NCBI GenBank assembly: GCA_003117195.1
Contig: BDSI01000178.1
Location: 62,001-126,000, forward strand
DNA: 64,000 nt
Direction of reading: 5' to 3'
DNA from: Eudorina sp. 2006-703-Eu-15
Lineage: Eukaryota > Chlorophyta > Chlorophyceae > Chlamydomonadales > Volvocaceae
Shown here: piece after piece, positions 54,217 through 60,641 of the stretch
Position numbering within the stretch: the first letter of the stretch is position 1
Layout: each line of letters starts with the position of its first letter
Translations under genes and position numbers: made by a program
Notes under the pieces: model-generated
What the model saw: only the letters and a program-made list of their open reading frames with translations
Databases searched by the model: none
What the model was told of the DNA's origin: nothing

Positions 54217-57200
54217 TCAGTCCTGGTCGCCGTCAGGCTGTGGACCGCCGTCGGGCCCAGCCCCATCCGGAGCCCTCCCCGCGCCGCCCTTCAGATCGTC
54301 GGCACCGGGCCCGCCGAGGGAGGCGCCCAGTCCACCTGCCGGGTCCGCGCCCGACAGCATCCCCAGGCCATACCGACCGTTGCCGCTTTTGGCAGCGCCG
54401 CTGCCCACGCCGCGGCCCATGCCCATCGCGTCTCTGCCGCCGTCAGCACTCGGGCCGAGGCCCCCGCCGCCGCCGCCGCCCTGCGGCGGCTCGTCGTCCC
54501 CGGGCGCGCGGCCCCGCGCCATCCCCTCATGGAGGTCCAGCTCGCGACCCCCCGCGTCCATCTCCGTGCCCGCTGCGGCAGCCGCCGCCGCCAGCGCCGC
54601 GGCTAGCGGCACGTCCGCCGCCAGCCCCAGAAGCTGCTGCTGCGTCGCCATGTGCTGCTTCCGGGCCCGCTGCACCGCCTCCAGCAGCTGCGCCTTGGAC
54701 GGAGGGGAATGGAGCCCGGGGGGAAGCGAGCCGCGGCCGCCCCGGCTGCCGCCGGCGCCGCTACCATCGCTGCTCCCGCCGCCGCCACCGCCGCCGCCAC
54801 CACCACCGCCGCCGCCACCACCGCCACCGCCGCGGCCGGCCGCAGTCATCGCGGCGGCGCCCAGAGCTCCCAGCTGGTCTTCATCCAGGGCTGCAGCGGC
54901 CGCCACAGCCGCAGCGGTGGGCAGGCCCGCGAGGTACTGCAGCTGCAGCATGGGCGACAGGTTCGCCACGCCGCCGGACGCCTGGGCGTTGCGAGCCATG
55001 GCCGCCACCACCGCGGACATGCTTGCGGCCACCTGATCGAAGGACACACCCCGAGGGCGGGGACGGAGGGGGTGAGGTGGGCGGGCGGGGATGGGTATAG
55101 GAAATTGGTAGACATATTTATATTTATACGGGCGGGGATGGGACTCATAAGGCCGACAGGCCGACCAGGTTGTCCGGTCCAGGTCGTCCATCCATCCCGC
55201 GAGACGGCGAGACGGCCTACCAGCCTTCCAGCCTACCCTGCACACGCACGTGCACTTGCACGCACACTATCGCGACTCGCACGGCTCTTTGCTCCAGATA
55301 GGCAGCGCTCTTCAACTATTTTACGGGTTGTGAATTTATTGGGTACATCATTTACGGATACCGGCAACCGTTGGGCACGACCACGACCACGTCCATTGCC
55401 ATGGCATGGCACGCACTCCTTCCCTACCCGCCGCGTAACACACGCGCGCATACCGACACACCGACACACACTCACACACACGCGCCGCCCCACATACCTG
55501 CTTCTCCTCGAACCTCTGCGCGAGCACCTCCGCCAGCTCCTGCTTCTGCTTGGCCCGGCGGTGACAGTGGCGCTGCAGCATTGTACGGCAAGAGCGCCGG
55601 TCGCCATCGAACTCCGACAGCGGGTGGAAGCGGCCGCACTGCTCACAGGACCGAGAAGAGGAGGGGGAGGAGGAGGGGGAGGCGGAGGAAGGGGAGCAGG
55701 GGGAAGCCGGATATGACGGGACGTGTGAGCAAAGGTGTCAGCGAGCCCACGGGGACAAGGACAAAATGTATCCTCCCGACGTAGTGGCGCAAACGGCTTC
55801 TCGCCCTGTCTCGTGTTGCAAAGAAATAGCATGTGATATGCCTCAAAAGTGACAAGACCAGTCGCGGCGGCCTCCCGTGGAACAGGAGGCCCTCTTGGCA
55901 TTTCCCCCGCCTTTGGCCCACCGTCGCGAACCCCCACCTGCTGGCAGAAGCGGTGCGGGACGCCGTCCTTCAGCACGGAGCTGACCTTGAGGTGGTGCTC
56001 GCCTGCAGACAGGAGGTGGTCAGACCACCGAGGCGTGGTGGGTGCGGACAGTCATCAAGGGATCAGGTCAGGGTTTAGGTCAGGGTTTAGGTCAGGGGTT
56101 AGGTCAGGGATTAGGTCAGGGATTAGGTCAGGGATTAGGTCAGGGATTAGGTCAGGGGTTAGGTCAGGGATTAGGTCAGGGATTAGGTCAGGGATTAGGT
56201 CAGGGATTAGGTCAGGGGTTAGGTCAGGGATTAGGTCAGGGGTTAGGTCAGGGGTCAGTAGGTCAGGGGTCAGGCCAGGGGTTAGGTCAGGGGTTAGGTC
56301 AGGGGTTAGGTCAGGGATCAGGTCAGGGGTTAGGTCAGGGGAGATATAGAACATTGGTACGCCAGCTGCGCTGTATGACAGGAGGTCGGAGGGGAACCCA
56401 AGAGGGTCCGGACAAACCCCAGCAGTAGCCTCAGTTCCTCAGCGCCAGACGCGTCACCGTCCCGACCTGTGTGCCCCCGGGCCTCGCACCCGCACCCCTC
56501 ACAGGCTTCCCACGGGTCACGGTCCCCCACTCACAGATCTTGTAGCGCTGGTAGTAGTCCCTCAGCCCCAACAGGCTGCGGTGGCAGCCCTGCACGTGGC
56601 ACATGCCCTTCTGCGCAGGCGCACGTCGGCCGGTCATCAGCACCGGGGGGGTGCCCTGCGCGCCGCTGCCGCCACCGCCGCCACCACCGCCTCCGCTGCC
56701 GGCGCCGCCGACGCCCCCGCTTCCGCCACTGCCGGCGCCGACGCCCTTGGGGCTGCCGGGACCGCCTTGGCCGCCGCTACCGGCGCCTCCGTGACCCCCC
56801 ACGTCGTCCTCCCCCGGGGCACTGCCGGGACTGCCGTTGCCCCGCGCAGCGCCAACCGAGGGTCCGTCCGCGATTGCCTCCGCGTCATACACGAGGTCCT
56901 GGAAGGCGGGGCAAGACCGGTCGAGAAGGACGAGAGGGTCAGCTGCTGATACCGGTACCATCGAGGTCCCTCCCTGTCAAGGCGTCCGCCGATCCGTCCG
57001 AGCCCGCCGGTTCCACCAACCGACGATTTCCGGGCTCATGTTCCAATATTCACGGCACCGCCATGAGCTGCCCTTGCACATTCATGTGAAAGAGAGCCAG
57101 TGGCGTGATGGACGTTCGCTGCTTCACCCGGCCACCCACCGCATGGCCGTAAAGTTGCTCCCCTCCTCGCCGCTTAGGTCCTATCCATTTGGCTGACACG

Positions 57201-60200: not shown

Positions 60201-60641
60201 GACTCCCTTGACCGGCATCTGTTGCCCGGGGGTCCAGTTCCCTACGCCGGGGTAAAGGCATGCGGAAAAAGTATTTTTGCCGCCAGCCGAATCTCCAGCA
60301 AGGCTTTGTGACAGGATTTGGTATTCCCAATTGTGGTGAAGGTTGTGGTGCAAAGCCGACAAGAATGTTTATCGGGTCCGATAAGATGTTGAGGAATAGA
60401 ACACCGCACCTTGCTTGAGGGCCGAAGCAAACCGCCGAGATGCAGCTGCCAGGATGATGCTATGGCAGTGCAGAGCACGACCATCCGGGCATACAAGCGT
60501 CAGGTCCGAGAGCGCTGGATTATTAAAAAAGGTCTTGGTCCCAGCTTGGATGAGCTTCGACAAGTCGAGGTGACACGGTGCCTCCTGTAACGTCAACAAT
60601 CGGAAAGGCTCGCTTGCCATGAGCTCGAAATGCCCAAACAT
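54217..60641 (-). CDS. BTB/POZ-BACK protein fused to an SBP-box DNA-binding domain
   Basis: Ten exons in transcript order: 60641-60410, 60241-60096, 59859-59720, 59451-59346, 58880-58046, 57759-57356, 56898-56535, 56002-55938, 55638-55498 and 55032-54217. Every junction agrees in phase and the total is about 1,082 residues. Exons 1-2 are a BTB domain (NNPALSDLTLVCPDGR, HCHSIILAAASRRF, ICAFYTSECPLEL). Exons 3-5 read as a BACK domain (LEQYLGTVLQPHNCCQVLEL, then SQLVALQ joined to AAVSWLSTGAG). Exons 5-7 continue as Gly/His-rich linker. Exons 7-9 form an SBP box with both zinc sites: CHVQGC, YKICEHH, RFCQQCGRFH and DRRSC, ending HCHRRAKQKQ. The last exon has Ala- and Gly-rich helices. SBP proteins bind GTAC-core DNA in the nucleus; BTB domains dimerise or recruit cullin-3. 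Exon 4 uses a GC donor. The start could also be the ATG at 60620. Confidence 0.85.
55096..55113 (-). repeat. Intronic 18-bp motif, copy F (acceptor side)
   Basis: In the direction of the BTB-SBP transcript this reads GTCTACCAATTTCCTATA, followed by a C-rich tract, 63 bases before the acceptor of the last exon. Confidence 0.85.
55498..56601 (-). other. SBP-box domain (exons 7-9 of the BTB-SBP gene)
   Basis: The first zinc site is Cys-x4-Cys, then Cys of KIC and the following His pair. The second is Cys-x2-Cys-x3-His and Cys of RRSC. Introns fall after YKI(C) and exactly after RFCQQ. Basic residues after the last Cys (RRSCRTMLQRHCHRRAKQ) fit the nuclear-localisation segment of the family. Confidence 0.93.
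56062..56340 (+). repeat. 12-bp intronic minisatellite (AGGTCAGGGATT / AGGTCAGGGGTT)
   Basis: About 23 tandem units lie in the intron between exons 7 and 8 of the BTB-SBP gene. Units alternate between GGGATT and GGGGTT, and a few are shortened near the right end. All reading frames remain open only because of the 12-base period. Confidence 0.95.
59281..59298 (+). repeat. Intronic 18-bp motif, copy G (donor side)
   Basis: In the direction of the BTB-SBP transcript this reads TATAGGAAATTGGTAGAC, 47 bases after the GC donor at 59345, within a G-rich tract. Confidence 0.85.

Follow-up and report, generated by a model that had tools for sequence, protein, structure and literature searches.

A predicted BTB-BACK-SBP gene of Eudorina and its relatives in the Chlamydomonadales

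The window analysed here is a stretch of 64,000 nucleotides from the volvocine alga Eudorina sp. 2006-703-Eu-15, and between 61020 and 54217 its reverse strand carries a predicted gene in which a BTB domain, a BACK-like helical bundle and an SBP box follow one another in a single open frame. An earlier note on this DNA had described the gene as ten exons (60641..54217, reverse strand), and that model is present as drawn: 3249 nt, exactly divisible by three, with a single terminal stop and with phases that agree at all nine junctions (1,0,2,0,1,0,1,0,0). All of its nine introns are GT-AG except the fourth, which is GC-AG. In corrected form the model has 11 exons (61020-54217, reverse strand; 3240 nt, 1079 aa), again with matching phases, and its parts are listed below in the direction of transcription.

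60973..61020, - strand: exon 1, corrected (MPVLQLDNRHEPLAKE); N-terminus as in V. africanus P0001, MPVLQLDSR in Gonium P0003; matching intron in the C59 paralogue
60585..60641, - strand: start region of the earlier note (MFGHFELMASEPFRLLTLQ); more likely intron, with P0002 as the counter-example
60410..60584, - strand: exon 2, start of the BTB; acceptor TTACAG; the earlier note began at 60641
59824..60533, - strand: BTB domain (34-135 in the corrected protein), interrupted by introns; Pfam E 1.5e-14
60096..60241, - strand: exon 3, BTB; intron positions common to C59
59720..59859, - strand: exon 4, end of the BTB and start of the BACK-like bundle
58761..59799, - strand: BACK-like helical bundle (residues 144-245, approximately), interrupted by introns; from AlphaFold2, fold neighbours and phmmer
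59346..59451, - strand: exon 5, BACK-like; donor GCAAGG
58046..58880, - strand: exon 6, end of the BACK-like bundle and Gly-rich linker
57356..57759, - strand: exon 7, linker with a basic run then an acidic run (RRRR...DDDEDY)
56535..56898, - strand: exon 8, linker and the beginning of the SBP box
55549..56601, - strand: SBP box (718-791 in the corrected protein), interrupted by introns; spacing of the zinc ligands intact
55938..56002, - strand: exon 9, SBP box
55498..55638, - strand: exon 10, end of the SBP box and basic region
54217..55032, - strand: exon 11, low-complexity C-terminus carrying LPPGLHSPPSKAQLLEAVQRARKQH; stop at 54217

The two models differ at the 5' end. We doubt the start at 60641 because relatives and the paralogue on contig C59 of the same genome indicate an upstream first exon; the first 19 residues of the ten-exon model (60641-60585) are probably intron, and the true start is probably the exon at 61020-60973. 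The N-terminus of V. africanus P0001 reads MPVLQLDNRREPLVKEDAPCHLDLS and that of Gonium P0003 reads MPVLQLDSR, the common start being MPVLQLD. The window encodes MPVLQLDNRHEPLAKE at 61020-60973, which joins in phase 0 to EAPCHLDLS at 60584; in the C59 paralogue a short first exon is likewise followed by an intron at the matching place and phase. A counter-example is V. africanus P0002, which has a different N-terminus that reads into LQEAPCH like the earlier model. Further downstream, RR-R and D-DEDY of the exon 7 linker are invariant in all five family-1 rows of the alignment, and LPPGLHSPPSKAQLLEAVQRARKQH of exon 11 is common to P0001 and P0004. The GC donor, at 59340-59345 in the BTB-BACK part, corresponds to a GT in the C59 paralogue. 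The intron after exon 8, which interrupts the SBP box, contains a 12-base minisatellite (AGGGATTAGGTC; 56058-56340, about 23 copies, 90% matches), and 3' of the gene lies a CCT triplet repeat (52855-52938, 28 copies).

A domain search of the joined protein places both BTB and SBP over their Pfam cut-offs. On the whole ten-exon protein the BTB covers residues 37-138 (E 1.7e-13, 51.1 bits) and the SBP box residues 721-794 (E 7.4e-28, 97.1 bits, cut-off 27); on the corrected protein the BTB lies at residues 34-135 with 54.5 bits (E 1.5e-14, cut-off 20.5). Pfam at E up to 1 lists no Kelch, MATH or ankyrin family in the window protein. By pattern match the SBP box has eight zinc ligands with intact spacing, at what we take to be the ligand positions of the domain, and the pattern, with H or Q permitted at one place, is matched by the window (with H) and by 11 of 14 relatives. 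The window box is 98% identical to that of Edaphochlamys over 62 columns, and phmmer with P0001 matches SPL4, SPL5, SPL7, SPL12 and SPL13A chains. By domain score and zinc ligands the predicted gene is a member of the SBP-box family, from which it would inherit binding to GTAC. The family-1 box of Gonium (P0003) reads RFQ for RFH, with Q replacing the zinc-ligand H of the other matched boxes.

BACK is missing from the Pfam matches of the whole ten-exon protein at E up to 1; when the N-terminal 247 residues are scanned by themselves it reaches 12.8 bits over 144-213 (cut-off 20.9). The region is aligned by phmmer to KLHL3 and KEAP1 through the window's 'aavswl'. P0001 is 89% identical to the window protein over the BTB-BACK region and 69% in the full-length alignment, and its AlphaFold2 model contains a confident helical bundle at residues 131-240, where ten-residue blocks average a pLDDT of at least 90; its BTB is poorly modelled (block pLDDT 50-64 over 41-110). 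Fold neighbours of the model in the PDB are KBTBD2, KBTBD4, KLHL11, SPOP, gigaxonin, NPR1 and BCL6. The top neighbours listed by the fold searches are BTB-BACK and SBP chains, with unrelated proteins lower down in the VIA-align lists. The earlier note had let the BACK domain span the junction into the Gly-rich exon, and the analysis supports this: the exon junction between LQ and AAVSWL falls inside helix 200-211 of the P0001 model and the phmmer alignment runs through it.

Protein searches started from BTB-BACK found at least 14 relatives, all Chlamydomonadales; lineage was looked up for Edaphochlamys, Tetrabaena and C. schloesseri, and we presume the same order for the remainder. The relatives are database protein models from search length windows of about 595-1893, 639-2033 and 461-1466 aa, for which the best 7990 and best 7999 candidates by shared words and, in the remaining search, all 3252 were scored. 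The order BTB-BACK-SBP, which the earlier note had thought worth seeking in volvocine proteomes, recurs there: both domains are over cut-off in 10 of the 14 relatives listed (P0001, P0003, P0005-P0009 and P0011-P0013), and six named species have both in one annotated protein (V. africanus, V. reticuliferus, Gonium, Pleodorina, C. reinhardtii and C. schloesseri). Four relatives are without one domain over cut-off. P0002 has the BTB, with the SBP at 21.7 bits against 27 in a model that ends within it; P0004 has the SBP, with the BTB at 16.1 bits against 20.5 in a model that begins within it; P0010 has BTB and linker and ends ahead of the SBP box, which is undetected; and P0014 is a partial model with BTB only. 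To us P0002, P0010 and P0014 look like truncated models. Among the relatives listed, within these length windows, no BTB and SBP parts occur as separate genes; SBP-only, shorter or longer models would escape searches of this design. The matches listed include no V. carteri protein and none from outside the Chlamydomonadales.

The Eudorina genome itself holds two further BTB-then-SBP copies, on contigs C37 and C59, each with BTB exons and then SBP exons on the same strand. An SBP search of the genome gave 25 exon-level matches at 22 places, and BTB-BACK exons, sought with the window protein, adjoin three of these (the window, C59 and C37). A genome search with Pfam BTB gave 46 exon-level matches that include C37 and not the window or C59, in both of which several exons share the BTB. 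Among the genome matches listed, every other BTB match is more than 30 kb away from any SBP match. At C37 the exons join in phase from the BTB via the BACK-like region and a long linker to the SBP, and C59 has five intron positions and phases (0,1,0,2,0) in common with the window gene. A BTB-BACK tree gives three families (c1 89/99, c2 85/87, c3 85/92) and places the window gene in family 1; one of its 13 inner branches is starred, long branches meet, and P0002 and P0009 were left out. For families 1 and 2 no match is listed from C. reinhardtii or C. schloesseri. The window gene likely belongs to an overlooked family of regulators known so far only from these algae.

The single gene that the earlier note had read here is well supported as a fusion of BTB-BACK and SBP, given the open phased frame, the conserved junctions and the order repeated at paralogues and in six species. 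The model could also be a prediction artefact that joins two adjoining genes, a BTB-BACK gene that would stop shortly after exon 6 and an SBP gene whose start would be the ATG of exon 7 (57757). Exon 6 can indeed run on to a stop (GTYV, then stop), exon 7 opens DMSG with an ATG, and the fused models of relatives may likewise be gene predictions. However, exons 6 and 7 are just 286 bases apart, with no TGTAA, the volvocine poly-A signal, between them. TGTAA is absent from the gene's strand between 61100 and 52041, and therefore from between the two halves, and the first one downstream lies 2.2 kb past the stop; since about 2.4 are expected by chance in 7.9 kb, this absence is weak evidence. The flanks of the exon junction are conserved on both sides, SGSATSMHS and DMSG at exon 6/7 being kept in V. 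africanus and found with changes in Gonium and Edaphochlamys; the exon 7/8 junction and the VYD that follows persist in V. africanus P0001 and in Edaphochlamys. Three paralogues and six named species repeat the order, with both domains over cut-off. We reject the two-gene reading on the gap, the junction flanks and this repetition, and regard it as very improbable.

The fusion may have arisen once and been lost in places, or may have been gained in part of the group. In an SBP tree of 23 boxes, which takes in 13 of the genome's 22 SBP loci and omits several relatives as well as partial boxes, a single change is enough to explain the 11 BTB-linked boxes, with weak support (43/34). BTB-linked boxes group at 91/91 with two others, L028 on contig C48 and L037 on contig C3. 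A profile search at E up to 1 found no BTB-BACK exon in the 9.9 kb upstream of either and did find the control exons of C37 and C59; the two are possibly ancestral or BTB-less relatives.

On balance we lean towards the prediction that the window gene encodes a nuclear, BTB-paired SBP transcription regulator of GTAC-containing promoters. In the predicted protein of 1079 residues, a long Gly-rich linker would connect the BTB-BACK module at the N-terminus to the DNA-binding SBP box. The BTB domain would pair two copies and so offer two SBP boxes to GTAC-containing promoters; BTB-BACK and linker would recruit co-regulators, and the protein would act in the nucleus. The analysis itself shows an open frame across the exons, both the BTB and the SBP domain, the conservation of the two together in three families, and the intact zinc-ligand spacing. 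BTB pairing, GTAC binding, nuclear location and co-regulator recruitment would follow from knowledge of the families: BTB domains commonly pair, and dimerisation of the window protein through its BTB is plausible.

The same parts could instead make a DNA-tethered Cul3 substrate receptor, in which BTB-BACK would bind Cullin-3, the SBP box would guide the ligase to promoters with GTAC, and chromatin-bound proteins or the factor itself would be ubiquitinated. The BTB-BACK fold is nearest to KBTBD2, KBTBD4, KLHL11, SPOP and gigaxonin, so that the best neighbours are mostly Cul3 adaptors. However, the BTB loop has WTP, FTG or ATG where phi-X-E, the usual Cul3-contact motif, would stand, in all 12 loops matched among 15 sequences (P0004, P0010 and P0014 are unmatched because their models begin too late), and the protein is without a Kelch or MATH domain in Pfam at E up to 1. 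C. reinhardtii does have a cullin named CrCUL3 (Cre07.g324050; PMC8125325, in the part of the text available). The cullin-3 ubiquitination proposed in the earlier note is weakened, although the BTB-BACK fold is of the kind found in Cul3 adaptors; the missing motif lowers the ligase reading, which we hold to be unlikely, if with an appreciable share of the probability. Far less probable is a non-DNA-binding or antagonist protein whose BTB-BACK sequesters partners and whose SBP box is vestigial. The Q at a zinc-ligand position in Gonium family 1 would fit such a protein, but 11 of 14 relatives and the window (with H) retain the ligand pattern (H or Q), and the near-identity of the window and Edaphochlamys boxes (98% over 62 columns) speaks against decay. 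The paired regulator is ranked over the ligase receptor because the Cul3 motif is missing from 12 of 12 loops, the zinc-ligand spacing is intact and BTB domains commonly pair.

A link to function comes from C. reinhardtii, where P0011 is CHLRE_01g012200v5, an annotated protein of 1375 aa, and is matched to the published PIR3 by its gene number. Kafri et al. 2023 (PMC10760936, in the part available) named Cre01.g012200 PIR3 and reported that its mutant is depleted of photosystem I; they predicted a bZIP domain in the protein and proposed that it probably acts in the transcription of PSI genes of the nucleus. The words 'BTB' and 'SBP' are both absent from the main text, and no rescue of the PIR3 mutant was found in the part available. 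Pfam at E up to 1 lists only SBP (106.3 bits), BTB (66.3 bits) and a sub-threshold BACK in P0011, and no bZIP. Under the v4 name Cre01.g012200 the gene also appears as 'NF*' under regulation of transcription in the section 8 table of the SAK1 paper, ahead of 'Repressed in sak1' (PMC4067076, in the part available). PIR3 resembles the window protein in uniting BTB, sub-threshold BACK and SBP, in that order, within one protein. Unlike the window gene, it belongs to family 3 (85/92, against 89/99 for family 1, in the BTB-BACK tree) and has its Eudorina counterpart on contig C37; in that tree the window gene does not group with it as an orthologue would. PIR3 thus gains a different, testable identity: instead of a bZIP factor it would be an SBP factor that carries a BTB-BACK module. 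On this view its targets should contain GTAC sites, and it should have a partner that depends on the BTB. We infer that the family would control nuclear genes, for PIR3 those needed for photosystem I. A wider proposal, which we put forward tentatively and consider doubtful, is that a volvocine-only BTB-BACK-SBP class of three old families takes a ligase-type docking module directly to promoters with GTAC and controls the supply of proteins for photosynthesis, photosystem I among them.

No description of a BTB-SBP protein was found in literature on the combination or on SBP architecture, in the parts available of sources that include few subscription papers (PMC8448359, PMC4788957, PMC10796333, PMC8125325, PMC10760936, PMC4067076). 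Among the SBP factors of PMC10796333, in its available part, one group has ankyrin repeats with the SBP, and BTB is unmentioned. The parts are already known, and it is the joint BTB-BACK-SBP architecture that we found undescribed in the portions of the literature covered; databases already carry fused models as hypothetical or domain-containing proteins. SBP factors thereby gain a further domain architecture, present in three paralogous families of volvocine algae. SBP/SPL factors, including the SBP factor CRR1 and Arabidopsis SPL4 and SPL7, have an SBP box with the zinc-ligand spacing of the window protein. The Cul3 adaptors of the KBTBD/KLHL type (BTB-BACK-Kelch; KBTBD2, KLHL3, KLHL11) share with it a BTB followed by a BACK-like bundle, whereas the window protein has an SBP box instead, without Kelch repeats and without phi-X-E. 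NPR1, a BTB-BACK-ankyrin co-activator of plants, has no DNA-binding domain of its own, and the window protein is without an ankyrin family (Pfam, E up to 1). Animal BCL6 and ZBTB7A also unite a BTB with a DNA-binding domain in one protein, and the window protein resembles BCL6 in fold and, weakly, ZBTB7A in sequence; unlike them, it has an SBP box in place of C2H2 fingers, contains a BACK-like bundle and belongs to another lineage.
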